Shown in pieces: positions 9,510 through 63,954 of a stretch of 64,000 nucleotides of DNA (position 1 is its first letter; every line of letters starts with the position of its first letter). The translations under genes and the position numbers were made by a program. The stretch is from an uncultured bacterium (GTDB lineage Bacteria > Hydrogenedentota > Hydrogenedentia > Hydrogenedentales > CAILVY01), in the NCBI GenBank assembly GCA_937951485.1, contig CALEDJ010000068.1, forward strand, positions 10,575 through 74,574, written 5' to 3'. The notes beneath the pieces were generated by a model that saw nothing but the letters and a program-made list of their open reading frames with translations, was not told the DNA's origin and did not search any database.

Positions 9510-10445
9510 ATGATGAAACCAACACGACGTCAATTCCTGAGACAGACAGCCGTCACCACGGGAGCGTTGGCTTTGGGGCCTTTGGCCGCAGGCGGCCAGG
9601 AAGCCGCCGGGACGCCCCCGGACATGTCTATCGCGCGATGGGCGGGCGCGGATGAGGCCCCGATTGCCGACATTGCAGTGAAACTCACCGAGCGGGCCAT
9701 GGAAGCCATCGGCGGCATGAAACGCTTCGTGAAATCCGGCGATGTGGTGTGGGTGAAGCCCAACATCGCGTGGGACCGCACCCCGGAACAGGCGGCCAAC
9801 ACCAATCCGGACGTGGTGAAGACGCTGGTGCGCCTGTGCTATGAAGCGGGGGCCAAAACGGTGAAAGTGGGCGACAACACGTGCAACGAGGCGGCAAAGA
9901 GTTATCCCAACAGCGGCATCGAGTCCGCCGCGAAAGAAGTCGGCGCGGAGATCGTGTATCTGGACCGCAGGCGTTTCAGGGAAATGGAAATCGGCGGCCC
10001 GGCGCTCAAGACCATCCCCGTGTATCCTGAAATCATCGAATCGGACCTGGTGATCAATGTGCCGGTGGTGAAGCACCACAGCGCCACGACCGTCACCTTG
10101 TGTATGAAGAATTACATGGGCGTGGTCGAGAACCGTCGCAAATTCCACCAGGATTTGCCCGGCACCATCCGCGACATCACGGCATTTATGAAACCCCGCC
10201 TGTGTGTGCTGGATGCTGTGCGCATTCTCACCGCAAACGGTCCAACCGGCGGCGACCTCGCAGATGTGAAACAGGTGAACCTCGTTGCGGCGGGCGTGGA
10301 CATCGTGGGGCTTGATGCGTTGGGTTGCGAAGTGCTCGGTCATCAGCCCGAGAAAATCGGCACGGTAGTGGCTGGTTTCGAGGCCGGCCTGGGACAGATT
10401 GACTACCGAAACAAACTGTCGTTACGAGAACTTGAAGTGGCGTGA
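9510..10445 (+). CDS. Tat-exported DUF362 domain protein
   Basis: The product is 311 aa. The ATG at 9510 follows an AAGGAGG ribosome-binding site. Residues 4-30 form a twin-arginine signal (PTRRQFLRQTAVTTGALALG). The rest matches DUF362 proteins: GDVVWVKPNIAWDR, NTNPDVVKTLVRLCYEAGAKTV, INVPVVKHHSATTVTLCMKN and GGDLADVKQVNLVAAGVDIV. DUF362 is often fused to or encoded near [4Fe-4S] ferredoxin domains, but its biochemical role is not settled. Here the ferredoxin part is a separate gene whose start overlaps or abuts this stop (GTGATCATG), so the two are translationally coupled and probably work together at the outer face of the cytoplasmic membrane. Confidence 0.85.
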   Translation: MMKPTRRQFLRQTAVTTGALALGPLAAGGQEAAGTPPDMSIARWAGADEAPIADIAVKLTERAMEAIGGMKRFVKSGDVVWVKPNIAWDRTPEQAANTNPDVVKTLVRLCYEAGAKTVKVGDNTCNEAAKSYPNSGIESAAKEVGAEIVYLDRRRFREMEIGGPALKTIPVYPEIIESDLVINVPVVKHHSATTVTLCMKNYMGVVENRRKFHQDLPGTIRDITAFMKPRLCVLDAVRILTANGPTGGDLADVKQVNLVAAGVDIVGLDALGCEVLGHQPEKIGTVVAGFEAGLGQIDYRNKLSLRELEVA

Positions 10446-10447
10446 TC

Positions 10448-12073
10448 ATGCGCCGTCCAAAATCCTGGATGCAATGGCTGAGGCGCATTTGCCAGGGCGG
10501 GTGTCTTGTTCTGTTTTTCTGGATTGCGCTGCAGGTGCGCATTGTCGGCTGTCCCACAAGCGAATGGTTCAAACTTTTTTTTGATCTGAACCCCCTGATA
10601 CTGATCGCGACCGCGCTTGCCACACATGAGATCGTCACGGCGCTGTTGTGCTCCCTCATCACCCTCGGCGTGACGGTGCTGCTGGGCCGGGTCTTCTGCG
10701 GGTGGGTCTGCCCGCTGGGTGCGGTCCACACCATGACGAGTTGGTTTAGGCAACGCCTGCGAGGACGCGCCGGCATGGAGAGGCGTTCGCCCTGGCACCG
10801 CGCCAAATATGTGCTGCTGATAGCGCTGCTGGTGATGGCGCTTTTCGGCGTGCACCTGATCGGCATACTTGACCCCATTTCGCTGCTGTACCGCAGCGTC
10901 ACGGCGGGTGTGCTGCCCGGCGCGCACTACGCTGTCGAAGACAGCGCCACGGCCATCTATCACGCCGACCCGCATATCGGTCCGTTGCGCCTGACCGCGG
11001 TCACGGAACCCGTCTATCGTCACTTCCGCGACCGGATTTTCCAGGCGCCGCGCCAGGCGTTTCTCGGCGGCACGATCATATCGGGTCTCTTCATCACCAT
11101 CGTTGCGCTGAATCTGGTCCGCCAACGTTTCTGGTGCCGCTATCTGTGCCCGCTGGGCGCACTGCTTGGCCTTTTTGCGCCGCGCCCCGCATTGCGGTTG
11201 CGCCAGGATGCGGGCAAATGCAATCAGTGCGGCAAATGCAATCTGGCCTGCCCCGCCGCCGCCCAACCCGACCGGCTTGGCGAATGGTTGCCCACGGAAT
11301 GCTACGGATGTTGGAACTGTGTGGCGGCATGTGACCGCAATGGACTTTCCTTCGGTTTTGAATCCCCGCTGCGCGCGCCTGCCGCGGGCAAACTGGACCT
11401 GTCACGCCGCGCCGCGCTCGCCGCCGGCGTCGGGGGTATCTCCGCGTTGCTTGCCTGCCGCGTTCCTGTGGAAATGCAGGATGACCAGCCTTATCCCGCC
11501 ACGCTGATCCGCCCGCCCGGCGCCCTGCCGGAACGGGAATTCTTGCAGCGATGCCTGGCGTGCGGGGCGTGCATGCGCGCCTGTCCCACCAACGGCCTTC
11601 AGCCTGTTGCGATGGAGGCGGGGATGGAGGCGCTCTGGACGCCGAAACTGGTGCCCAAGATTGGATATTGCGCATACGATTGCCACCTCTGCGGCAAGGT
11701 CTGCCCCACCGGCGCCATTCAGAACCTGAAAAAACGGGTCAAGCAGGAAACCCGCATCGGCCTCGCCTTCTTCGACGTGAGCCGCTGCCTGCCCCACAAT
11801 TTCGGCCGCGAATGCATTGTATGCGAGGAACACTGCCCCCTGCCGAAAAAGGCAATCTATCTTGTCGAGAAAGACATCATCCTGCGCGACGGTTCGATAC
11901 GCAGCGTCAAGCAACCCTTCGTTGATCCCGACCTTTGCATCGGCTGTGGCGTGTGCGAATGGTCCTGTGTGTTTCAGGACGAACCCGCCATTCGCGTCAC
12001 CTCCGCCAACGAAAGCCGCAACCCGAAGAATCAACCCATACTTCCGGGCGCCGGCGGCTTCTACGGCGGATAA
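10448..12073 (+). CDS. NapH/NapG-like membrane polyferredoxin (fusion)
   Basis: About 541 aa from the ATG at 10448; a GTG at 10442 overlaps the DUF362 stop. Hydrophobic segments near residues 20-35, 50-80, 120-143 and 210-226 anchor it. Two NapH-type motifs, FCGWVCPLGA (about 85-94) and WCRYLCPLGA (about 231-240), flank the periplasmic loop. These are followed by clusters CNQCGKCNLAC (about 260) and CYGCWNCVAAC (about 287). Residues 318-340 contain an internal twin-arginine-like segment (LSRRAALAAGVGG), then NapG/MauM-like clusters at about 371, 410, 458 and 499. It looks like a NapH-type quinol-dehydrogenase subunit fused to a NapG-like ferredoxin. Transfer of quinol electrons to an exported partner is inferred; no nitrate reductase is present. 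Confidence 0.82.
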   Translation: MRRPKSWMQWLRRICQGGCLVLFFWIALQVRIVGCPTSEWFKLFFDLNPLILIATALATHEIVTALLCSLITLGVTVLLGRVFCGWVCPLGAVHTMTSWFRQRLRGRAGMERRSPWHRAKYVLLIALLVMALFGVHLIGILDPISLLYRSVTAGVLPGAHYAVEDSATAIYHADPHIGPLRLTAVTEPVYRHFRDRIFQAPRQAFLGGTIISGLFITIVALNLVRQRFWCRYLCPLGALLGLFAPRPALRLRQDAGKCNQCGKCNLACPAAAQPDRLGEWLPTECYGCWNCVAACDRNGLSFGFESPLRAPAAGKLDLSRRAALAAGVGGISALLACRVPVEMQDDQPYPATLIRPPGALPEREFLQRCLACGACMRACPTNGLQPVAMEAGMEALWTPKLVPKIGYCAYDCHLCGKVCPTGAIQNLKKRVKQETRIGLAFFDVSRCLPHNFGRECIVCEEHCPLPKKAIYLVEKDIILRDGSIRSVKQPFVDPDLCIGCGVCEWSCVFQDEPAIRVTSANESRNPKNQPILPGAGGFYGG

Positions 12074-20887: not shown

Positions 20888-21436
20888 TTACGACTGTTTT
20901 TGGGCCGCCTGCTTCTCCGCTTCCTTGACGAAACGCTCCAGCAGGGCGGGAACTTTGTCGGGAGTCATCTCACCATAGATGCGTTCGCCCACCATAACCA
21001 CCGGTGCCAGGCCGCACGCGCCCAGACACCGACTGGCCTCCAGTGAAAAGAGTCCGTCGCTGGTGGTTTCACCGAATCCGATGCCGAGTTCATCGCGCAG
21101 TCGTTCGACGACCCGATCCGCCCCCTTGACGTAACATGCCGTGCCCAGGCATACGCGGATGGTGAATTTTCCCTGTGGTTCCAGCCGGAAATAATGATAG
21201 AAAGTGGCCACGCCGGTGACCTTGGCTGCGGGAATCTGCATGAGTTGGGCGACGGCATCAAGTTGCTCTTTGCCCAAATACCCGAAATGCGCCTGCACTT
21301 TGTGCAGTACCGAGATTAACTGGCTGTGCGGATAAGGACCGCTGTTACAGGCCTCGATGAAGGCCACGACATGGTCCGGCAGTGCGGCCCGGCTTTTCTC
21401 CATAACCTCCTTGCGATTGTCGGTCTGAATCATCAT
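20888..21436 (-). CDS. hydC: [FeFe]-hydrogenase gamma subunit (NuoE-like)
   Basis: The product is 182 aa, a NuoE-family thioredoxin-fold [2Fe-2S] protein. Cluster ligands are Cys96, Cys101 (CLGTACYVKGA), Cys137 and Cys141 (CLGACGLAPV), with the usual C-x4-C...C-x3-C spacing. An N-terminal helical domain precedes them (LISVLHKVQAHFGYLGKEQLDAVAQLM). Its start overlaps the end of hydA by 4 bp (ATGA). Next to HydA and the NuoF-like HydB it forms the gamma subunit that passes electrons to the flavin in trimeric NAD-dependent hydrogenases. Other NuoE roles (complex I, formate dehydrogenase) are excluded by the neighbours. Confidence 0.92.
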   Translation of the reverse strand: MMIQTDNRKEVMEKSRAALPDHVVAFIEACNSGPYPHSQLISVLHKVQAHFGYLGKEQLDAVAQLMQIPAAKVTGVATFYHYFRLEPQGKFTIRVCLGTACYVKGADRVVERLRDELGIGFGETTSDGLFSLEASRCLGACGLAPVVMVGERIYGEMTPDKVPALLERFVKEAEKQAAQKQS

Positions 21437-23199
21437 CGGATTCCTCTTGGCAAGCGTGGTGCGTAATGAGTGTGTAAGAACTTGTGGGCCTTTTCACCGC
21501 CGGGTTCGCCCAAATAATCCCGGTAAAGGGCCTGAATCTGCGGGTTCCGGATGGAACTTCGGAGTTCCTTGGCGCTGTCAATGGCATACAACGCCTTTGC
21601 GCGCGCGGCGAGCAGCCGCCGGTCGAGAAAACGGTACCCCTGCGGCGGATAGGGCTGGCCGCCGCCCCCAATGCAACCGCCGGGGCAGGCCATCACCTCG
21701 ATGATGTGGAAGGCCTTCTCGCCGTTGACCACCTTGTCCAACAGGCGCTTCGCGTTTGTCAGGCCGTTGGCGACGCCGACATTCAGGAGGAGTTCGCCGA
21801 CGCGCAATTCGCGTTCGCGCAATCCCTCCACCGCGCGCACGTCGGTGAATTCCAGTTTTTCCGGGGGGGCGCCGGTGAGACGTTCGACCGCGCTGCGCAG
21901 CGCCGCTTCCATCACGCCGCCGGTCGTGCCGAAGATGTCCGCCGCGCCGCTGGATTCGCCGAAGGGGTTGTCGAAAGCGTCTTCGGGAAGATTGACCAGG
22001 TCAATGCCGTAGCATCTGATCATCCAGATAAGTTCGCGTGTGGTGAGGACGGCGTCGGTTTCCGGCGTGCCGTCCTCCATGTGGAATTCCGGGCGGCCCG
22101 CCTCGAATTTCTTCGCCACGCAGGGCATCACCGCCACCACAAAAAGGTCTTTGGCCGCGATGCCCATCTTTTCGGCGTAATAGCGCTTGAGCAATGACGA
22201 CATCATGGCCATGGGCGACCGGCAGGAGGAGGCGTGGGGAATCAATTCCGGATAAAATCGTTCCAGAAAGTTCACCCAGCCGGGCGAACAACTGGTGAGC
22301 AGCGGCAGACGTTCCTCCGCCTGAAACCGACGGACAAACTCCTCGGCTTCCTCCACAATGGTGAGGTCGGCGGTGAAATTGGTGTCGAATACGGCCTCGA
22401 ATCCAAGCCGCCGCAGCGCGGTGACCATCTGCCCGGTAACCGGCGTTCCCGGCTTAAGGCCGAAGCCCTCGCCCAGCGCCGCGCGGATGGAGGGCGCGGT
22501 CTGCACCACCACCGTCTTCGTCGGGTCATTCAACGCCGCCCAGACCGCTTCCGTGGCGCTCTGTTCAACAAGCGCCGCCGTGGGGCAGACGTTGATGCAT
22601 TGCCCGCATTGGATGCACACCGAATCATCCATCCGCGCGCCATGGGCGGGCATGACTTCCGTTTCAAACCCGCGCCCATGCTGGCTCAGGTTGTAAATAC
22701 CCTGCACTTCGGCACACACACGCACGCACCGTCCGCAGAGAATGCACTTTTCGGCGTTGCGCACGACGGAGCGGCTGGACGCCTCAACAGGCCGGCGCTT
22801 CCGCACGCCCTCAAAAAGACGTTCGCGCACGCCGAGCGAATACGCCAGGTTCTGCAGTTCGCAATTGCCGTCGCGCTCGCAGGTCTGGCAGTCCTGCGGA
22901 TGGTTATCCAACAGCAGTTCCAGAATGTCGCGGCGCGCCTGGCGGATTTCCGGGCTGTTGGTCTTCACTTCCATGCCTTCCCAGACCTTCACGCTGCAGG
23001 AAGCCATCAGAAAGTCCACGCCCTTCACTTCCACCACACAGACGCGACATGAACCGGCAAGGCTCAAATCAGGATGGTAGCAGAGCCGGGGGATGCGGAT
23101 GCCCAGATTCTTCTCAGCGGCATCCATGATGGTGGCGCCTTCAGGCACGCTGACGGGAGTTTCGTCTATCACAAGGTTTATCATCTTCTTGTCGCTCAT
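21433..23199 (-). CDS. hydA: [FeFe]-hydrogenase catalytic subunit
   Basis: The product is 588 aa. The N-terminal [2Fe-2S] domain has ligands Cys40, Cys51, Cys54 and Cys68. A His-ligated [4Fe-4S] site, H-x3-C-x2-C-x5-C (HPQDCQTCERDGNC), is at about residues 100-113. Two ferredoxin clusters follow: CILCGRCVRVC (about 152) and CIQCGQCINVCP (about 195). The H-cluster motifs are complete: L1 TSCSPGW (about 302), L2 MPCVAKKFEA (about 358) and L3 MACPGGCIGGGG (about 503). TSCSPGW is the form seen in trimeric, NAD-linked group A enzymes, and the hydB-hydA-hydC order supports electron bifurcation between ferredoxin and NADH. The maturases HydE, HydF and HydG are not in this window. Confidence 0.97.
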   Translation of the reverse strand: MSDKKMINLVIDETPVSVPEGATIMDAAEKNLGIRIPRLCYHPDLSLAGSCRVCVVEVKGVDFLMASCSVKVWEGMEVKTNSPEIRQARRDILELLLDNHPQDCQTCERDGNCELQNLAYSLGVRERLFEGVRKRRPVEASSRSVVRNAEKCILCGRCVRVCAEVQGIYNLSQHGRGFETEVMPAHGARMDDSVCIQCGQCINVCPTAALVEQSATEAVWAALNDPTKTVVVQTAPSIRAALGEGFGLKPGTPVTGQMVTALRRLGFEAVFDTNFTADLTIVEEAEEFVRRFQAEERLPLLTSCSPGWVNFLERFYPELIPHASSCRSPMAMMSSLLKRYYAEKMGIAAKDLFVVAVMPCVAKKFEAGRPEFHMEDGTPETDAVLTTRELIWMIRCYGIDLVNLPEDAFDNPFGESSGAADIFGTTGGVMEAALRSAVERLTGAPPEKLEFTDVRAVEGLRERELRVGELLLNVGVANGLTNAKRLLDKVVNGEKAFHIIEVMACPGGCIGGGGQPYPPQGYRFLDRRLLAARAKALYAIDSAKELRSSIRNPQIQALYRDYLGEPGGEKAHKFLHTHYAPRLPRGIR

Positions 23200-23220
23200 A
23201 ACACATTCCGTTCCGCTGGG

Positions 23221-25404
23221 TCAGCCTTTCAGCACGGCGTTGAACCGGCACACTTCAAAGCACCTGCCGCACTTGATGCACAGGCTCTGATCAATCACAT
23301 GCGCTTCCTTGCGTGCCCCGGTGATACACTGCACGGGGCAGTTCTTCGCGCACATGGTGCAGCCCACACATCTCTCCGTAGAAATCTCGTAGTGAACCAA
23401 AGCGCGGCACTTACGCGCGGGACAGCGCTTTTCATGCACGTGCGCCGCGTACTCTTCGCGGTAGTATTGCAGCGTGCTGAGGATGGGATTGGGCGCGGCC
23501 CGGCCCAGCCCGCACAACGACGTGCGTTTCACCAGCCGCCCAAGCCGTTCCAGGCGCTCGATGTCGTCCGGCAAGGCCTTGCCGGAGGTGATGCGCTCCA
23601 GGATTTCCAGCATGCGCTTGGTGCCCTCCCGGCACGGCGTGCATTTGCCGCAGGATTCGTCCTGAATGAATTCCATGAAGAACTTGGCGACATCCACCAT
23701 GCAATCGTCCTCGTCCAGGACAATCATGCCGCCGCTGCCCATGATGGAACCCAGTTTTGCCAGGGTGTCATAGTCCACCGGCGTATCGAGAAACCCGGCG
23801 GGAATGCACCCCCCCGCCGGGCCGCCGGTCTGCACCGCCTTGATCGCCTTGCCGTTGGCGGTGCCGCCGCCAATCTCCTCCACGACATGCCGCAGCGTAG
23901 TGCCCATGGGCACCTCGACCAGGCCTGTGCGGCGGATTTTTCCAGCCAGTGCGAAAACCTTCGTGCCGCCGCTCTGCGGTGTGCCGACCCGGCTGAACCA
24001 GTCGCTGCCGTATTTGAGGATTGGCGCTATGCTGGCGAATGTTTCGACGTTGTTGATTACCGTGGGCTTGCCCCACAAGCCGCTCTCGGTGGGAAACGGC
24101 GGACGGATACGCGGCTGGCCGCGCTCGCCCTCGATGGAATGAATCAGCGCGGTTTCCTCGCCGCATACAAAAGCGCCGGCACCCAGGCGAATCTCAATGT
24201 CAAATGAAAATCCCGAACCCAGTATGTTTCTGCCCAGCAAGCCGTTGGCGCGGCAGGTTTCGATGGCGTGTTCGATGCGCCGGATGGCCAGCGGATACTC
24301 CGCGCGAATATAGAAGAACCCGCGCTGCGCGCCGGTGGCGAAGCCGCCAATCATCAGGCCTTCGACCACGCTGAAAGGGTCGGACTCCAACATGCTCCGG
24401 TCCATGAACGCGCCCGGATCCCCTTCGTCCGCATTGCAGATGATATAGCGCGTCTTTTCGTTGTTCTTGCGCGCCTGCGCCCATTTCAGCCCCGTGGGGT
24501 AGCCGCCGCCGCCGCGCCCGCGCAATCTCGCCTCGGACACCATCTTCACCACCCATTCCGGGTCGTTCCGGTCCAGCGCCGTGGCCAGCGCCTCAAAACC
24601 CCGGTACCGGACATATTCGTGCAGACTCTCCGGGTCAATCACCCCGGCGTTGCGCAAGGCAATGCGGTGCTGTTGATTGAAGAAAGCCAAATCCCCGTAG
24701 AGGTCAAAAAACCGCTGGCTCATGGGTTGTTCACGATTGACCAGCCGATCCACAATCCGGCCGCCCATCAGATGTTCCTGCACCACGGCGCGCACATCGT
24801 TCTCATCCCGGATGGTGTAGAGCACGTTTTCGGGCAGCACCAGCGCCTGCGTAATCTCGCCGGCGGCCTGATTGGTCGCGCAGAATCCCAGGCACCGCGA
24901 TGAAATCACCCGTATCTTCTCGGGGTTCATTCCGGATTCCGCGATGACCCGCAGAAAAGCCTCCCGCACCCCGCCCTGCACCGCGCCGCCGCAGCCTGAT
25001 CCATCACACAGCATCAGGTGATTGGCATGTTCCGTAAGTTGGTCAGCGAGCATGCGCTCGGACACCGGCTTGCCGCCCAGCACATGGCTGTGGAAAATCT
25101 CATGCACCGCGTCGCGATCCACTTCGTGGTATTTTACGGGGAGGCGTCCGGTCTCGATAACGCCCACAATCGGCTCGCGGCTGCACCGCCCCGTACAGCC
25201 CGTGCGGTGCAGCAGGATGTCGCCGCGCCCGGAAGATTCGATGTGCCGGCGGAACTCTTCCCACACCGCCTCCGAACCGGCGGCGTGTTCGCAGGTGGCC
25301 GAACCGACCTGGATGCGGACGCTTGCCTTGCGCCACAGCGCGTCCACCGCCGCAGTCGCCTCCCCGCGCAGTTTTTCGTATCGTTTCAACACTTGCCCTG
25401 CCAT
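23221..25404 (-). CDS. hydB: [FeFe]-hydrogenase beta subunit (NuoF-like) with two N-terminal ferredoxin domains
   Basis: About 727 aa from the ATG at 25404 (MAGQVLKRYEK), preceded by AAGAGGAG; the open frame extends 16 codons upstream. Two tandem thioredoxin-like [2Fe-2S] domains occupy about residues 25-110 (ATCEHAAGS..TGCTGRCSREP) and 110-210 (LCDGSGCGGAV..SRCLGFCATN). The NuoF core follows: RLRGRGGGGYPTGLKW (FMN/NADH), CNADEGDPGAFMDR, GAGAFVCGEETALIHSIEG and the [4Fe-4S] site ESCGKCTPCREGT. The C-terminus carries two ferredoxin clusters, CVGCTMCAKNCP and CIKCGRCFEVC. It binds NAD(H) and FMN and would host the bifurcation flavin. Typical HydB has a single N-terminal domain, so the duplication is notable. 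It is 21 bp upstream of hydA. Confidence 0.93.
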   Translation of the reverse strand: MAGQVLKRYEKLRGEATAAVDALWRKASVRIQVGSATCEHAAGSEAVWEEFRRHIESSGRGDILLHRTGCTGRCSREPIVGVIETGRLPVKYHEVDRDAVHEIFHSHVLGGKPVSERMLADQLTEHANHLMLCDGSGCGGAVQGGVREAFLRVIAESGMNPEKIRVISSRCLGFCATNQAAGEITQALVLPENVLYTIRDENDVRAVVQEHLMGGRIVDRLVNREQPMSQRFFDLYGDLAFFNQQHRIALRNAGVIDPESLHEYVRYRGFEALATALDRNDPEWVVKMVSEARLRGRGGGGYPTGLKWAQARKNNEKTRYIICNADEGDPGAFMDRSMLESDPFSVVEGLMIGGFATGAQRGFFYIRAEYPLAIRRIEHAIETCRANGLLGRNILGSGFSFDIEIRLGAGAFVCGEETALIHSIEGERGQPRIRPPFPTESGLWGKPTVINNVETFASIAPILKYGSDWFSRVGTPQSGGTKVFALAGKIRRTGLVEVPMGTTLRHVVEEIGGGTANGKAIKAVQTGGPAGGCIPAGFLDTPVDYDTLAKLGSIMGSGGMIVLDEDDCMVDVAKFFMEFIQDESCGKCTPCREGTKRMLEILERITSGKALPDDIERLERLGRLVKRTSLCGLGRAAPNPILSTLQYYREEYAAHVHEKRCPARKCRALVHYEISTERCVGCTMCAKNCPVQCITGARKEAHVIDQSLCIKCGRCFEVCRFNAVLKG

Positions 25405-25448
25405 GTTCGCTCCTCTTGATGCCATGCGTGCATAAAGTCGGTGCGGCG

Positions 25449-26330
25449 TCATTTGGACAGCGCCGCGATGATGCCATTTACGTGGGCCACGTCCCGTTCC
25501 AGCACCCGAATCCGTTCTTCGCCTTCGGCGAATTTCCCCAACGACTCGTCCTCAATGCACAGGTCGCCCGCATATCCCGCCGCGTGCAGCACACGCGCCA
25601 CGCGCGCATGGTCCACATCGCCCTCATCCAGCGGGCAGACATAACGCCCGTATTCCCAGCCCGCCTCGCGTGTCTGCTCGCGCATTTCCGCGGGGTAGCA
25701 TATGTTTTTCAAGTGCGTGTGCTTCGCATGCGGCGCCAGCACAGCGAGAATACCATACACCTCGGACAACGGATAGCCGCGCCAGTAGAAATTCCCGGTG
25801 TCCATCGTTACGCCCAGGCGGTCGGACCCGACCCTCAGGAACACATTCAGCAGAAACGCGAGGTTATTGCCCTGGAAGCCGTGGTTTTCAATGCCCATCG
25901 TCACGCTGAGGCCCGATGTCATTTCCAACGCTGCGCCCAGTCCGTCCGCAAAAAGGCGCACCCGATCCTCGAAGTTCAGTTCGCGCTCGCGCGACATGTA
26001 GGAGTCAATGCGGATATTGTCCATGCCGAGGATCGCGGCCAATTCCAGCGCCCGCGCCACCCACCGTGCGTTCTCTTTCGCGTCGCCCGCGCTGAAATCC
26101 CGCGCCGTCAGAAAACTGCACGGCCGCACATCCAGCCCGTTCAGATGTTTGCGGTAGGCGGCGGCATCCTCATCCGTCACCAGGCGAATCCGCTCCCGCG
26201 CATCCATGCGCATCACTTCAAAGGTCGCCGACAGTTCAATTTCAACGGCATTGACGCCCAATTGGCGTATCCCCTCGATGGGGGTGGGAAATGTATCGAA
26301 AAGCATACAATCGCGGATAGAACAGTACAT
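25449..26330 (-). CDS. Sugar phosphate isomerase/epimerase-like TIM-barrel protein
   Basis: The product is 293 aa from the ATG at 26330, which follows ACAGGAGA. It has the AP-endonuclease-2/xylose-isomerase-like barrel: EIELSATFEVM, IRIDSYMSRE, MGIENHGFQGNN (Glu metal ligand), VTMDTGNFYW, HTHLKNI and LCIEDES (terminal Glu ligand). Such enzymes isomerise or epimerise sugars or inositols; the substrate is not determined. It lies 44 bp upstream of hydB on the same strand. It could be the first gene of the hydrogenase transcript, but no functional link is obvious. Confidence 0.85.
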   Translation of the reverse strand: MYCSIRDCMLFDTFPTPIEGIRQLGVNAVEIELSATFEVMRMDARERIRLVTDEDAAAYRKHLNGLDVRPCSFLTARDFSAGDAKENARWVARALELAAILGMDNIRIDSYMSRERELNFEDRVRLFADGLGAALEMTSGLSVTMGIENHGFQGNNLAFLLNVFLRVGSDRLGVTMDTGNFYWRGYPLSEVYGILAVLAPHAKHTHLKNICYPAEMREQTREAGWEYGRYVCPLDEGDVDHARVARVLHAAGYAGDLCIEDESLGKFAEGEERIRVLERDVAHVNGIIAALSK

Positions 26331-58214: not shown

Positions 58215-59039
58215 ATGGCGCATGTTGTGAGGGTATCGGCGTTGCTTGTCTGTTGTCTTCTTCTGATCACGATGACGACGGGGTGTCCATTCCATCATCC
58301 GCCGCCGGTAGTGACTGTTGACCCTCCCGCCGTTACGCTTGAAATCGGGCAGACACTGGCATTTCACGCGACAAGCAGCCTTGCCGGAGACACTGTTTTT
58401 GTCTGGTCTGCAAAGCCTTCATCCGTGGTTACGGTTGATCAAAATGGCATGGCCACAGCCCTGAAAGAAGGCGCGGCGATCGTCAAAGCCCAGAGCGTCC
58501 GAACTCGGGCGGCCGGCTATGCGAGCGTTCAGGTGATTGCGCCTAGTGGAGGCGAAGGCGAAGGCGAGGGCGAGGGTGAAGGCGAGGGTGAAGGTGAGGG
58601 AGAAGGCGAGGGCGAAGGTGAGGGAGAAGGCGAGGGTGAAGGTGAGGGAGAGGGCGAAGGAGAGGGCGAAGAAGTCCATAAAGTTGAACTACCCCCAAAA
58701 TATATAGATCTGGCTTGGGCAAAAGTACACGATCCCAATTCCCCCTCTTATGATAATGACTGTATTAAATGTCATGGGACAAAACAGAATGAAATCTCTG
58801 CTCACAGCGATTTGCCCGCCTTGCATGCCGCTGTGAGTCAGACGGTAATGAGAACCGTCCTGGGTGCCGGAAACACGCTGTGCCACCGCTGTCACGTTGC
58901 CGGCGTTGATATGGTGGACCGGACAACGCAATGGTTGAAAGGCAGCGTATTTGCACGAAATGCCGGCCGATGCGCCACCAGCAGTTGTCATGGTCCTGCT
59001 GCGCCGGAAAAACTGCGATTTTATGCCTCAGGTTTGTAA
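58215..59039 (+). CDS. Tri-haem c-type cytochrome lipoprotein with (GE)20 linker
   Basis: The product is 274 aa from the ATG at 58215, 8 bp after AAGAGG. The signal peptide ends in a lipobox, MTTGC (Cys24). About residues 30-110 form a Big2-like Ig domain (VTVDPPAVTLEIGQTLAFHA, WSAKPSSVVTVDQNGMATAL). Residues 113-152 are 20 consecutive Gly-Glu pairs, a long acidic flexible linker. The C-terminal about 120 residues hold three haem-attachment motifs, CIKCH, CHRCH and the longer CATSSCH, plus extra histidines (SAHSDLPALH) that could be sixth ligands. It would be a lipid-anchored electron carrier held away from the membrane. As first gene of the molybdoenzyme operon, it is the likely electron donor or acceptor. 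Confidence 0.85.
   Translation: MAHVVRVSALLVCCLLLITMTTGCPFHHPPPVVTVDPPAVTLEIGQTLAFHATSSLAGDTVFVWSAKPSSVVTVDQNGMATALKEGAAIVKAQSVRTRAAGYASVQVIAPSGGEGEGEGEGEGEGEGEGEGEGEGEGEGEGEGEGEGEGEGEEVHKVELPPKYIDLAWAKVHDPNSPSYDNDCIKCHGTKQNEISAHSDLPALHAAVSQTVMRTVLGAGNTLCHRCHVAGVDMVDRTTQWLKGSVFARNAGRCATSSCHGPAAPEKLRFYASGL
58551..58670 (+). repeat. Hexanucleotide (GGN-GAR)20 tandem repeat
   Basis: This tract is 120 bp of GGN GAA/GAG hexamers encoding Gly-Glu twenty times within the cytochrome lipoprotein gene. Third-base choices vary between copies (GGC, GGT, GGA; GAA, GAG), so the repeat is not a recent pure expansion. Confidence 0.95.
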
Positions 59040-59099
59040 TTACGCTCCATTTTGCCCCTTTCCGAAAATAGCGCAATATGTGTTTGCTGGAGAATAAAA

Positions 59100-61940
59100 A
59101 TGGAACCGCGAGACAAAAGAATGTCAGGCATGGACAAACTTGCTTCGATGTGGCTGGAGTCGCCCATGTCGCGCCGATCATTCCTCCGCGCTACGGCAGG
59201 ACTGGTTGCAGGAAGCGCGCTCTCTGGCGCGTTGTTCCAGGAGCATGCGGCCCGGGCCGCGCATTTTGGCGATCCGGTGCTGGTCGAAACCGATCCTCGC
59301 GTTGAAATCAAGTACAGCGTATGCCAAGGCTGTCATGGACGGTGTGGTATCCGCTGCAAGATCGTTGACGGCGTGTTGGTGAAGATAGACGGGAACCCCT
59401 ACCATCCCTGCAACCGGGAGCCTCATCTGCCGTATGACACCCCGCCGGAACAAGCGCGTTTCATACCGGCACGAATTTGCGCAAAAGGCGGCGCGGGGAT
59501 GCAGACGCTCTATGATCCCTACCGTATCAAGGAGCCGCTCAAACGCGTTGGGCCGCGCGGTTCGGGACAATGGGAAACCATATCCTGGGAACAGGCCTTC
59601 CGGGAAATTGGTCAAAAATTGCACCAGTACCGTGATTTCGACACGCTGCTGGATCCCAGCGCGCCTGAATTGGGTGTGCGCGCCAACCAGGTGGTCTTTT
59701 CGGGTGGCAGGAACCAGCAGAACTCGTTCACTGATCGCTTCTGGAAAAAGGTCTTTGGAACCGTCAATGCTCGCCACGATCACACCAGCATTTGCGAAAC
59801 AAGTCACCATGTCGGACATGAACTGACGACAGGCTACGGCATCGCCTCAAGCACGAAGGACCATACCAAGCCGGACCTCGCCCATACCGATTTCCTGCTG
59901 GCGTTCGGAACCGACTTCTGCCAGGCGAATTTCCCTTTTGTGCCCCTTGCGCGTAAATACATTGACATGATTGAACGCGGCGCCAAAGTGTACGTTGTCG
60001 ACCCGATATGCAATATCATGGCCTCAAAGGCCCATTGGATTCCGATCAAGCCGGGGGTTGACGCCGCACTCGCGCTGGGCATTGCGCGTGAAATCGTGGA
60101 TAACCGCTGGTACAACGAAGCATTCCTGCAACGCCCCCATGCCGATGCCGCCAATCCCACCGGAGAATTGAGTTTTTCCGATGCCACACTGCTGGTGAAA
60201 ATGGTTGGTGGGCGCCCCCGCAAGTTTCTGCGCGGAGACGAAGCGGGAATAGCGAACGGCACGGATGCAGACTTTGTGGTCTGGTCCAATGGGCGGGCAT
60301 GCAAACATAATGAGGCAGATACTGCCGAACTGTTGCCCGGAACCATTGTAATCAATGGCCACACGTGCAAGACGGCCTTTGAATTGTATGTCGAGCGGGT
60401 GCGCGAACACACCGTGAGCGAATATGCGGCGTTGTGCGGGGTAGATGCCGCCATCATTCGCACACTGGCGCAGGAATTGGTTGCGGCGGGAAGGCGCGGT
60501 GTTGTCAGCATGTACCGGGGATCGGTGCAGCACACCAACGGAACCTATACCGCGCGCGCCATACTTTCACTGAACCTGCTTGCCGGAAATTTCAACTGGA
60601 AAGGCGGATTGAGTTTTGGCGGCGGCGGGTACCGCACAAGCGGCGCAGGGCTTCCGTTTCCCGATCCCGGCGCTGTGCCGGGGGGCGTTTCGGCCTCAGG
60701 CGTTCAGATTACGCGCGTCAAGGCGAAATATGAGGACAGCAGCGAGTTTTCACGGCACGGTTATCCCGCCCAACGCCCCTGGTTCCCCCTTGCCCTGCAT
60801 TACAATTACCAGGAAGTGCTTCCCAGTCTTCTCGAACAATACCCCTATCCCTGCAAGGCGCTGATTCTGTATTGGAATGGTTTCCCCTATTCCACGCCCG
60901 CTGCGAAGAAAGTATGGGAAGACCTTGTCAAAGACGAGAGCAACATTGAACTGCTCGTCGGCATTGACATCGCAATGGGGGAGGCCACGGCGTGGTGTGA
61001 TTATGTCCTTCCCGACACCACATACCTGGAGCGGTGGACCGTCGTATCTGTCGCGCCCACCCTGGTAACGAAGATCAGCGGCGTCCGGCAGCCGGTGGTA
61101 GGGCATGTGGATGCGGAAACGGGCGATTACACACCTGTGCTGCCCAATACGAAGACCTTGGAGGATATCCTCATCGGCTTGGCGCGGACGATGGGCTGGC
61201 CTGAAAACTTGCGCAATGCCTGGGAATATTGGGGGCAATTGATCGAGAATGTGGCAAAAGACGGCGCCGGCTACGACATCAATTACGTGTTGGCGCGCGG
61301 CGGCCGTTTTGAAGCCTATGACAGGGCGTACGAGGGCGACGCGTTGCGGCATCGCTTTCAGAACCGCCTCTACTTCTTCTCGGAATACCTCGCCCAAACC
61401 CGTGACTCCATCACAGGCGAGTATTGGGACGGGCTGCCGAAGTATGAACCCATTGCCGATGTCGCCGGGCGCAGCATTTCCGTGAGCACCGAGGAATACC
61501 CCCTTCATCTGGTCACCTATAAAATGGGATGGCACACCCAGATGCATACCTGCCGGTACCCGTGGCTCATGTCAATACAACCGGAAAATTTCGTGGAAAT
61601 CAACAGGATCGATGCGGCGGCGCGTGGCATTTCCACGGGCGATTTTGTCATCCTGAAATCACCTGAATCCCCGATAGGAGTGGCCGCGCTGGCCAAGGTC
61701 ACCGAAACCTTGTGTCCGGGCGTCGTGGCGGTATCCCACCATTTTGGCCACTGGGAAATGTCCTCACGTCCCCATGTTGTCAATGGGGTGAAAACCACCT
61801 ACGATGAAACCCGTGGCAGGGGGATCACTGTGAATCCGTTGTTGCTGCGTGACCCGGTGCTGGGAAATGTCACACTGCAGGACAAAATCGGCGGAAGCGC
61901 TTCTTTCTTCGACACACCGGTCGAAGTTGTCAAGGCATAA
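59100..61940 (+). CDS. Tat-exported molybdopterin oxidoreductase (DMSO reductase family)
   Basis: The product is 946 aa from the ATG at 59100 (GGAGAATAAAA upstream). A Tat signal (SRRSFLRATAGLVAGSA, residues 24-40) sends it across the membrane folded. The [4Fe-4S] ligands are Cys75, Cys78, Cys82 (CQGCHGRC) and Cys127 (RICAKGGAG). The segment around Cys232, SICETSHHVGHE, offers a cysteine as probable Mo ligand, as in polysulfide, thiosulfate and tetrathionate reductases. The C-terminal molydopterin-dinucleotide domain includes HLVTYKMGWHTQMHTCRYPW and VNPLLLRDP. Ferredoxin and TorD-like genes follow. The substrate is unknown; a sulfur- or arsenic-oxyanion reductase is the best inference. Confidence 0.9.
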   Translation: MEPRDKRMSGMDKLASMWLESPMSRRSFLRATAGLVAGSALSGALFQEHAARAAHFGDPVLVETDPRVEIKYSVCQGCHGRCGIRCKIVDGVLVKIDGNPYHPCNREPHLPYDTPPEQARFIPARICAKGGAGMQTLYDPYRIKEPLKRVGPRGSGQWETISWEQAFREIGQKLHQYRDFDTLLDPSAPELGVRANQVVFSGGRNQQNSFTDRFWKKVFGTVNARHDHTSICETSHHVGHELTTGYGIASSTKDHTKPDLAHTDFLLAFGTDFCQANFPFVPLARKYIDMIERGAKVYVVDPICNIMASKAHWIPIKPGVDAALALGIAREIVDNRWYNEAFLQRPHADAANPTGELSFSDATLLVKMVGGRPRKFLRGDEAGIANGTDADFVVWSNGRACKHNEADTAELLPGTIVINGHTCKTAFELYVERVREHTVSEYAALCGVDAAIIRTLAQELVAAGRRGVVSMYRGSVQHTNGTYTARAILSLNLLAGNFNWKGGLSFGGGGYRTSGAGLPFPDPGAVPGGVSASGVQITRVKAKYEDSSEFSRHGYPAQRPWFPLALHYNYQEVLPSLLEQYPYPCKALILYWNGFPYSTPAAKKVWEDLVKDESNIELLVGIDIAMGEATAWCDYVLPDTTYLERWTVVSVAPTLVTKISGVRQPVVGHVDAETGDYTPVLPNTKTLEDILIGLARTMGWPENLRNAWEYWGQLIENVAKDGAGYDINYVLARGGRFEAYDRAYEGDALRHRFQNRLYFFSEYLAQTRDSITGEYWDGLPKYEPIADVAGRSISVSTEEYPLHLVTYKMGWHTQMHTCRYPWLMSIQPENFVEINRIDAAARGISTGDFVILKSPESPIGVAALAKVTETLCPGVVAVSHHFGHWEMSSRPHVVNGVKTTYDETRGRGITVNPLLLRDPVLGNVTLQDKIGGSASFFDTPVEVVKA

Positions 61941-61961
61941 ATACGTTCGGAGGAATCATGA

Positions 61962-62486
61962 ATGCCACAGGCAGGCTGGATTTTCAACGAAAAACGCTGC
62001 ATTGGCTGCCGTTCGTGTTATGTCGCCTGTAAGGCGGAAAACAACACACCGCTGCGCACCGACTGGCGCTGGGTCATGGCACGCGAAACAGGCGGCTTTC
62101 CTCATGTGAAGCGCGAATTCCTTTCCCTCGCTTGCAACCACTGCAAGGAACCGGCCTGCCTGAAGGCATGCCCGGAAAACGCCATTTCAAAACGGGATAA
62201 AGACGGTGTGGTGCTGATCGATCAGGACAAATGTATCGGTTGCCGTTACTGCGCGGCCGTATGTCCCTATGAAGCGCCGAAAATTGACACCGATACAAAC
62301 AAGGCAGGCAAATGCACCATGTGTGTCCACCGATTGGAACAAGGATTGCTGCCGGCCTGTGCAACGGCCTGTATCACGGGCGCCATTCAGTTCGTCCCCG
62401 ATTTCGGCGAGGCGTCCGGACCCGTCCCGGAAGGTTTCGTGAACCGCGCCTTCACACATCCCAACATCAATTTCATACTGATGTGA
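61962..62486 (+). CDS. Four-cluster [4Fe-4S] ferredoxin subunit
   Basis: The product is 174 aa; the ATG at 61962 follows CGGAGGAAT. Sixteen cysteines are arranged for four [4Fe-4S] clusters: C13/C16/C19/C23 (CIGCRSCYVAC), C58/C61/C66/C70 (CNHCKEPACLKAC), C91/C94/C97/C101 (CIGCRYCAAVC) and C118/C121/C133/C137 (CTMCVHRL..PACATAC). This is the beta-subunit pattern of the DMSO-reductase family (DmsB, PsrB, PhsB, TtrB). No signal peptide is present, so it would be carried out together with the Tat-exported catalytic subunit. It passes electrons between the catalytic subunit and a membrane or cytochrome partner. Confidence 0.95.
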   Translation: MPQAGWIFNEKRCIGCRSCYVACKAENNTPLRTDWRWVMARETGGFPHVKREFLSLACNHCKEPACLKACPENAISKRDKDGVVLIDQDKCIGCRYCAAVCPYEAPKIDTDTNKAGKCTMCVHRLEQGLLPACATACITGAIQFVPDFGEASGPVPEGFVNRAFTHPNINFILM

Positions 62487-62509
62487 ATATGCGCCCAGGA
62501 AACACCGAA

Positions 62510-63244
62510 ATGCTGCATGCCGATGCCCTCGCGGAAATGACGCCGGCGCGCGCGCGCTTATATGAATTTCTGAGTGCGGCATATCGCTATGCCCCGACCG
62601 ACGACGACCTGGCCCGCCTGGAGCAATGGGATCAGGAGGACGCACTGCCCGCGCTCTTCGGATTGGATGCCGGCGTGGCATTCAGGGACTGGATGCGCTC
62701 TTTTTCCACCATTCCCGCCGTGACCGCAGAAATTAAAAAGGATTTTATGGCCCTTTTCAAAGTGCCTGGCAACCGTTATGTTGCGCCATACGAATCCGTG
62801 TATTGCGAAAACCGGAAAGATGACGGCAAACCCGCAGGGCTGTTGATGGGCCCACCGTCCGTAGACGTCAAGAAATGGTATGCCCTGGCAGCGGTCGAAA
62901 TGGACAAAACCTGCAGGGAACTTCCGGATCACATCGCCATCGAACTTGGATTTATGGCGTGGTTGTGTGAAAAACAACAACAATTTTGGAAGGCGCATGA
63001 CGAACGGTTGCATCGCCGGGCGTGCGAGATGCAGCGGGACTTCCTGGCCGCTCATATCCTGCCATGGGTTGGCTCGCTGACACGTCGCATCGTGGAAAAC
63101 GCCTCCCTGCCATACTACCCTGCAGTCGCCGAACTCACCGCGGCGTTTGCAGAAGCAGATATGACGCTTCTTGTGGCCATTCTCGGTCCTTCCGAGAAAC
63201 ACGCAACGCCGCGCTATGCCCCTTGGCATACCCCTTCCGCATGA
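62510..63244 (+). CDS. TorD/DmsD-type chaperone for the molybdoenzyme
   Basis: The product is 244 aa from the ATG at 62510, which has CCCAGGA upstream; an ATG at 62489, starting 3 bp after the ferredoxin stop, would add 7 residues. The all-helical TorD fold is suggested by ARARLYEFLSAAYRYAPTDDD at the start, the conserved YESVYCENRKDDGKPAGLLMGPP (family form Y.S.y..e.....g) and PDHIAIELGFMAWLC (family form pDHi..EL.fm..L). These chaperones bind the Tat signal of the catalytic subunit until cofactor insertion is complete. It is the last gene of the operon. No NrfD/PsrC-type membrane subunit follows. Confidence 0.9.
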   Translation: MLHADALAEMTPARARLYEFLSAAYRYAPTDDDLARLEQWDQEDALPALFGLDAGVAFRDWMRSFSTIPAVTAEIKKDFMALFKVPGNRYVAPYESVYCENRKDDGKPAGLLMGPPSVDVKKWYALAAVEMDKTCRELPDHIAIELGFMAWLCEKQQQFWKAHDERLHRRACEMQRDFLAAHILPWVGSLTRRIVENASLPYYPAVAELTAAFAEADMTLLVAILGPSEKHATPRYAPWHTPSA

Positions 63245-63596: not shown

Positions 63597-63954
63597 GGGG
63601 GCGACATGGTTTCGACGGGGGTGGATGAGGCGTGGGATGCGTGCCGAGGACCCCGGTTGGCCTCGTTAATCATCCGGGAACAAGTTAACTGCGAACCAAG
63701 ACTTCGCACTCGCCGCCTGATTCGCGCGGCGCGTCCACCCCGTGACCGCCTGCTAGCGGACGTGGACGACGACCAGCGGGCCTCGCGCCGGAACGGCCGA
63801 GGGAACATCCGGCAGAGTAGGTTTCCCCCTAGCGAAGCGAGACAGCGCGCCTGACGCGGTCCCGCCCGGCGAATCAACAAAAGAAAGGCTACGCACGTAG
63901 GATCCCCCGCTGAGGCACTTCCGGACGCGGGTTCGATTCCCGCCGCCTCCACCA
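63597..63954 (+). ncRNA. ssrA: Transfer-messenger RNA (one-piece tmRNA)
   Basis: The 5' end GGGGGCGACATGGTTTCGAC and the 3' end with GGGTTCGATTCCCGCCGCC-TCC-ACCA are diagnostic. Bases 63597-63603 pair with 63944-63950 as a 7-bp acceptor stem (one G-U), and CCA is encoded. The TpsiC arm is CGGGTTCGATTCCCG. The tag frame most likely resumes at the GCG at 63691 and reads ANQDFALAA before TGA at 63718, giving (A)ANQDFALAA after the alanine carried by the tmRNA; the ALAA end is the usual ClpXP degradation signal. Total length is 358 nt. It rescues stalled ribosomes together with SmpB, which is not in the window. Confidence 0.96.

Follow-up and report, generated by a model that had tools for sequence, protein, structure and literature searches.

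A TtrA/SrdA-branch molybdoenzyme operon with a dedicated tri-haem cytochrome gene and no NrfD-type anchor gene

We describe a four-gene molybdoenzyme operon that encodes a tri-haem c-type cytochrome in place of an NrfD-type membrane anchor. It lies in a 64,000-nucleotide stretch of DNA from an uncultured member of the Candidatus Hydrogenedentota; this whole stretch is called the window below. The original prediction held that no anchor was visible next to the enzyme. The anchor is truly absent, with the cytochrome in its place, in one clade that spans at least four named phyla. We consider it probable that the gene products, which we refer to by the working name Cyt3-ABD, form a periplasmic, anchor-less oxyanion oxidoreductase in which the cytochrome functionally replaces NrfD, with the electron route proposed in the last section.

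Gene content and cofactor motifs

The four genes point in the same direction and encode, in order, the tri-haem lipoprotein, a Tat-exported Mo-bisPGD enzyme (A), a four-cluster ferredoxin (B), and a TorD-type chaperone (Table 1). The gaps between them are 60, 21, and 2 bp. The operon stops upstream of a tmRNA at 63597-63954. The gene order and coordinates predicted for the four genes, followed by the tmRNA, were confirmed. A chance origin of this arrangement is excluded by far, and the arrangement recurs in other phyla. The same operon is found on the Candidatus Hydrogenedentota MAG contig JAJRTN010000089.1.

Table 1. Operon features in window coordinates
Feature	Position	Strand	Evidence or remark
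Tri-haem c-type cytochrome, predicted lipoprotein, 274 aa	58215..59039	+	Lipobox TTGC, Cys24 (58284-58286)
Big_2 Ig-like spacer domain	58311..58496	+	Pfam PF02368, 1.3e-8
GEGEGE acidic linker	58548..58673	+	Generic in window genome
Tri-haem domain, conserved part	58674..59036	+	Alignment of 12; PF22113 (MtrC/MtrF II-IV) in 11/12
CIKCH haem motif	58761-58775	+	Tri-haem domain
CHRCH haem motif	58881-58895	+	Tri-haem domain
CATSSCH (CX4CH) haem motif	58971-58991	+	Tri-haem domain
Catalytic Mo-bisPGD subunit A, 946 aa	59100..61940	+	Tat motif, FS0 Cys, Mo-ligand Cys, tree
Four-cluster [4Fe-4S] ferredoxin subunit B, 174 aa	61962..62486	+	16 Cys, without own signal peptide
TorD/NarJ-type Tat proofreading chaperone, cytoplasmic	62489..63244	+	PF02613, 5.5e-25

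Subunit A has the Tat motif SRRSFL, the FS0 cysteines Cys75, Cys78, Cys82, and Cys127, and the Mo-ligand Cys232 in the loop DHTSICETSHH. Its signal is a plain Tat signal without a lipobox. The best NCBIfam match of A is TtrA at 449 bits, which is below the equivalog cut-off of 1750; an Azospirillum TtrA-type enzyme scores 1191 bits with the same model. Other scores for A were 150 bits with the ArrA model (cut-off 1600), 224 bits in the PhsA/PsrA test (cut-off 694), and 61 bits with the NapA model (cut-off 904). The 16 cysteines of B are enough for four [4Fe-4S] clusters, and B has no Tat signal. The fourth product belongs to the Nitrate_red_del/TorD family, and its scores with the TorD and type II chaperone models are below cut-off. 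Single-chain AlphaFold2 models were poor for A (6 sequences, pLDDT 40) and for the tri-haem domain (5 sequences, pLDDT 47).

By eye, the window also encodes [FeFe]-hydrogenase-like and NuoF-type subunits at 21433-25452 and a NapH/NosR-like polyferredoxin membrane protein at 10442-12073.

Absence of the anchor and distribution of the arrangement

There is no NrfD, DmsC, or cytochrome b gene within the operon. The single NrfD-family protein of the window genome is ActC, encoded between ActB- and ActD-type genes of an act-cox operon (alternative complex III plus oxidase), and it is thus accounted for. Genome G053 (93% complete) has the operon and no NrfD anywhere; the other operon-bearing genomes, ten in all with G053, have 1 to 8 NrfD copies. 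Together, the identity of ActC and the lack of NrfD in G053 led us to reject a distant NrfD partner and indicate that an assembly gap does not account for the missing anchor. Such a partner elsewhere in the genome had been named beforehand as the finding that would speak against the original prediction, and none was found. The window genome is 94% complete and a single gene could have been missed, which is a minor worry given the clade-wide pattern. The operons of the window, G009, G091, G376, G297, and G355 are flanked by sequence on both sides and have no anchor gene there.

DmsC had no match in the window genome and only sub-cut-off matches in G009 and G019. Cytochrome b (PF01292) matched in all five genomes searched, and the strong match in the window genome comes from a protein that fuses an octahaem part to cytochrome b; it is encoded on another contig, unlinked to the operon. 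On contig C58 of the same genome, L103:5542-8961 encodes a 1140-aa chain that combines eight CXXCH motifs with a membrane part of the cytochrome b type.

We sampled homologues of A from genome contigs, 68 genomes of the same phylum, 386 relatives across the domain, and plasmids, and read about 5 kb on each side of A at every locus. Five of the 68 own-phylum genomes have an A homologue. A search of the plasmids with an ArrA fragment gave no match. A cytochrome with the same tri-haem domain is encoded directly upstream of A in all 12 clade loci that have upstream sequence (window, L004, L034, L100, L005, L006, L008, and L079-L083), and there is no NrfD-like ORF within 5 kb in these 12 loci. All of the loci derive from MAGs and contigs, and several of the contigs are short (L006 is 3.3 kb; L034 begins inside the cytochrome). 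The clade includes Candidatus Hydrogenedentota, Verrucomicrobiota, Acidobacteriota, and a deltaproteobacterial/Myxococcota MAG. Where the sequence is present, B follows A, is 173-210 aa long, and has no Tat signal. Loci outside the clade usually run B-C-A and encode an NrfD-type protein of 8-11 TM and a longer B that often has a Tat signal (L007, L074, L075, L077, L078, L085, L086, L089-L092, L096, and L097). None of the outside relatives has such a cytochrome directly upstream of A, and most carry NrfD.

Trees that included TtrA, ArrA, PsrA, PhsA, and DmsA as references place the 12 A sequences linked to a cytochrome in one clade, with an SH-aLRT of 100 in a 42-row tree and UFBoot/SH-aLRT values of 97/96 in a careful 27-row tree. 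The cytochrome label requires one change on the tree, where shuffled labels would need about 9-11 (expectation 9.1). Closest to the clade from outside are L055, with an upstream NrfD gene (PF03916, 6e-30), and the long-branched L084. In both trees, A falls within the TtrA/SrdA branch, apart from ArrA and from PsrA/PhsA. The other outcome contrary to the original prediction, a place for the enzyme within a named clade whose anchor is defined, was not found; the cytochrome clade sits within the TtrA/SrdA branch, in which most other members have NrfD. The simplest history, with an inferred rooting and direction of change, would be an NrfD-linked ancestor and one replacement. Wells et al. mention an apparently new lineage as the sister of TtrA/SrdA (PMC10100899), and this might be the cytochrome clade.

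Several individual loci stood out. The A of L006, a 3.3-kb contig labelled Verrucomicrobia, groups inside Hydrogenedentota-type sequences, which points to lateral transfer or a mis-binned contig. Another sub-branch without NrfD has, ahead of B and A, a 100-aa tri-haem protein that may be of the c7 type and carries a signal peptide (L094:10167-10466, minus strand); this is possibly an independent cytochrome recruitment. In the NrfD-linked L055 and L091, A has no Cys Mo ligand, PSIGSATYH and VSISEPSYR replacing the SICE region, so cofactor or function may differ. An Fe-S protein of 378-446 aa follows the operon in L080, L081, L082, and L084 and is not found in the window. The same protein is cut by the contig end at L005:5178-6029 (284 aa), and the L080 copy has Fer4 and FlpD-like domains.

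The tri-haem cytochrome

Behind its lipobox (TTGC, Cys24), the lipoprotein carries a Big_2 Ig-like domain, then some 41 residues of GE linker, then a domain with three haem motifs. Three motifs had been predicted and three are present; the third, CATSSCH, is a non-standard CX4CH, which the prediction did not mention. The four Hydrogenedentota-group homologues that have sequence at this site all share CX4CH, and CXXCH stands at the aligned position in the remaining ones. From this alignment, the third motif is most likely a real haem site. In the 12 homologues, H51 of the domain is invariant, as are all three haem sites, and H19, Met59, and Tyr117 are nearly so. Therefore, H19 and H51 are candidate distal ligands that may give two haems bis-His ligation. 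The third haem has no conserved distal His and may have His/Met ligation or an open site.

The N-terminal parts differ among members. There are Big_2 domains in G053, nothing in G009, a fn3-like domain in L083, MopE-type metal-binding repeats in L081, and a collagen-like GPAG stretch in L082; the Big_2 spacer is missing in the orthologue L004. Lipoboxes are present in the cytochromes of the window, G009, G053, L082, and L083, and by eye, those of L006, L008, and L079 have ordinary-looking, non-lipoprotein signal peptides. Because the N-terminal parts vary and the tri-haem domain is constant, the domain appears to be the working part and the tether optional. Judged by these sequences, the spacer and the lipobox are not conserved in the clade and the tri-haem domain alone is. 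The cytochrome had been described as lipid anchored; this is consistent with the lipobox of the window protein but does not extend to the whole clade. The acidic linker, to which a part in electron transfer had been ascribed, was rejected as a functional feature. Dozens of proteins of the window genome have GE linkers, there are 52 matching places in that genome, most of them in this linker segment, and the orthologous cytochromes have none.

A PDB profile search with the tri-haem domain gave MtrF, UndA, and MtrC as best matches (5e-9 for the whole sequence). However, the match is spread over repeats, the best single-domain match to MtrF has an i-E of only 4e-5, and CXXCH-rich profiles overrate each other, which inflates MtrF/MtrC-type scores. 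PF22113 matches 11 of the 12 cytochromes weakly; the window protein scores 24 bits against a cut-off of 30, and the L083 homologue passes it with 30.7. NapB is a weak match to the domain (0.0026), and the DmsE model gives 17 bits for the window cytochrome against a cut-off of 192. We suggest that the tri-haem domain is distantly MtrC/MtrF-like. A direct origin from the OmcA/MtrC gene of the same genome was not supported, the hhalign match covering 27 columns only.

Electron route, rival readings, and substrate

The NrfD-type subunit is the accepted quinone link and the normal partner of the TtrA group (PMC8076601). The operon shares with TtrABC, SrdBCA, and the alternative archaeal arsenate reductase family the branch of A, the Cys Mo ligand, the FS0 cluster, the four-cluster B, and a TorD-type chaperone. 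It differs from these systems in having a dedicated tri-haem cytochrome and no NrfD/TtrC, in its order (Cyt-A-B-D, not B-C-A), in a B without its own Tat signal, and in a Mo-site loop unlike that of TtrA. Open-access literature yielded no paper naming this cytochrome-TtrA-like cluster and no biochemistry on members of the cytochrome clade.

Known systems offer analogues. In the Shewanella DmsEFAB(GH) system, the dedicated multihaem DmsE feeds DmsAB with electrons from CymA (PMC11302344). As here, A and B are served by a dedicated multihaem c-type cytochrome with no integral quinol subunit. However, DmsE is a periplasmic decahaem protein that works with the outer-membrane DmsF, and DmsA belongs to another clade; here the cytochrome is tri-haem and there is no porin. 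The periplasmic FdhABC3 of Desulfovibrio has catalytic and Fe-S subunits plus a dedicated cytochrome c3, with no membrane subunit listed (PMC10920352). It likewise pairs a Mo/W enzyme with its own cytochrome, but it is a formate dehydrogenase with an A of a different clade, running in the oxidative direction. NapAB, and ArrAB with CymA, are soluble periplasmic Mo enzymes fed by c-type cytochromes and not by NrfD. NapA is fed by NapB, which is dihaem and not tri-haem, and NapA is of another clade than A; ArrA is a separate lineage in both trees and uses no dedicated tri-haem subunit. The cytochrome of FdhABC3 is a tetrahaem c3-type protein. Given DmsEFAB, FdhABC3, and NapAB, the cytochrome wiring of a Mo enzyme is not without parallel. 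With the decahaem MtrC, MtrF, and OmcA, the operon cytochrome shares the lipoprotein character and a weak match to haem domains II/IV, but it has only three haems, no pentahaem pair, and scores below the family cut-offs.

We propose the following mechanism. An ancestral B-C-A operon would have lost its NrfD quinol-reactive subunit, and a dedicated tri-haem cytochrome encoded upstream of A would have taken over. A and B would be folded in the cytoplasm, assisted by the TorD-type chaperone, and exported as a pair via Tat, with B as a hitch-hiker. The tri-haem domain would dock to B and shuttle electrons between the pool of periplasmic multihaem cytochromes and the Fe-S wire that leads to the Mo site. 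Lipid and the long Ig/GE spacer would hold the cytochrome at a membrane in the window organism; elsewhere it may be soluble. The likeliest direction is reduction, in which electrons would run from quinol through a NapC/NirT-type or other quinol-cytochrome oxidoreductase to periplasmic cytochromes, and then through the tri-haem protein and B to A and the substrate, probably an arsenic, selenium, or sulfur oxyanion.

Candidate partners are present in the window genome. On contig C7, a NapC/NirT-type cytochrome is encoded beside an OmcA/MtrC-family decahaem lipoprotein (392 bits, cut-off 209) that has the same lipobox-Big_2-GE build as the operon cytochrome. The contig also encodes 6-haem and 14-haem proteins around a 528-aa likely outer-membrane beta-barrel with a C-terminal Phe and no convincing family match. 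Each of the four Hydrogenedentota-group genomes searched has NapC/NirT-family matches, and in the outside relative L084 a 6-haem protein that by eye is NapC/NirT-like is encoded about 3 kb upstream of A. A route from quinol via a NapC/NirT-type cytochrome, the tri-haem protein, and B to A is plausible on this gene content. The region L102:1328-9496 of contig C7, which encodes these five proteins (the NapC/NirT-type cytochrome, the decahaem lipoprotein, the 6-haem and 14-haem proteins, and the likely beta-barrel), looks like a putative extracellular electron conduit, and its 6-haem protein is DmsE-like. Separately, contig C47 of this genome (L101:6677-8786) encodes a likely NrfHA ammonia-forming nitrite reductase pair (PF02335, 1.8e-131).

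The same partners would also serve a complex run in reverse, in which a donor oxidase (e.g., for arsenite or reduced sulfur) passes electrons through B and the tri-haem protein to periplasmic cytochromes, with ACIII/oxidase or an extracellular conduit as the next station. A multihaem partner that is soluble and lacks a quinone site suits electron export as well as import, and the genome has the ACIII-cox genes along with the decahaem, NapC/NirT-type, 6-haem, and 14-haem proteins and the likely beta-barrel. However, the named members of the TtrA/SrdA family are reductases (PMC7331816, PMC10100899) and no oxidase marker adjoins the operon in the window, so we consider reverse running unlikely, though worth keeping in mind. 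The MtrF/UndA/MtrC and PF22113 matches, and the build shared with the decahaem lipoprotein, would fit another arrangement, akin to the cell-surface role raised in the original prediction, in which an MtrC-like outer-membrane tri-haem lipoprotein holds or feeds AB at the cell surface, as in DmsEFAB. The likeness allows an outer-membrane site for the cytochrome but does not show it. Against a surface enzyme, the single-domain match is weak and subject to the inflation of CXXCH-rich profiles, no MtrB/DmsF-type porin gene lies in or near the operon, the genome has no PF11854 (MtrB) match, A has a plain Tat signal, and some clade cytochromes have non-lipoprotein signal peptides. We think such an enzyme quite unlikely. 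We also hold as decidedly improbable a broader version, a single clade-wide swap of an MtrC/MtrF-derived tri-haem lipoprotein for the NrfD proton/quinone module. This would wire the enzyme to extracellular-electron-transfer cytochromes, possibly at the outer membrane, and let it exchange electrons with surface cytochromes rather than the quinone pool.

Read at face value, the best family match of A would make the operon an ordinary TtrABC tetrathionate reductase, with TtrC/NrfD encoded elsewhere or lost at a contig end and the cytochrome an unrelated neighbour. Flieder et al. (2021) proposed just this for the ttrAB genes of Candidatus Sulfomarinibacter MAG AM3-A, placing the missing ttrC beyond the contig end (PMC8528874). 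But A does not reach the TtrA cut-off, the operons flanked on both sides have no anchor, G053 has no NrfD, the cytochrome is present throughout the clade, and the Mo-site loop is DHTSICExSHH versus AHGAYCGxAYR in TtrA. This reading is very unlikely and strongly disfavoured. The AM3-A contig JACXWA010000069.1 (L008) falls within the cytochrome clade and encodes a cytochrome with four haem motifs directly upstream of A. From this cytochrome on the other side of A and the comparative data, we argue that the AM3-A locus probably has no ttrC to find, which would be a better reading of the published gap. A clade that swapped NrfD for a tri-haem cytochrome would mean that the quinone module is exchangeable and the enzyme is freed from a fixed membrane partner. 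Pipelines that name such genes ttrA may mis-predict both substrate and energetics, and the clade is a clear set of loci for testing wiring and substrate.

As to the substrate of Cyt3-ABD, the sequences lean, with low confidence, toward an arsenic or selenium oxyanion over tetrathionate. Members of the clade have the DHTSICExSHH loop or close variants of it; an enzyme on a Citrobacter arsenic-resistance plasmid has EHTNICELSHH and ArrA has SHSSVCAEAHK. Where ArrA has His189, Ser190, and Lys198 (residues named in PMC10654088), the window enzyme has His228, Thr229, and His237. In one clade genome only, G010, an arsenic neighbourhood lies directly downstream of the operon on the same strand (L035:2158-7927). 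It encodes ArsR, an ArsP_1 permease, a DGC protein, a thioredoxin-MerB-NosL fusion, a DsbD/ArsG-like protein, a further ArsR, and an ArsC-type reductase, a set that includes thioredoxin-fold proteins. Genome counts of ArsR were uninformative because ArsR is universal. PhnD-type sensor genes lie upstream of the operon in G053 and G297, and likewise beside the Azospirillum TtrA-type operon, and Moco genes adjoin the operon in G053.
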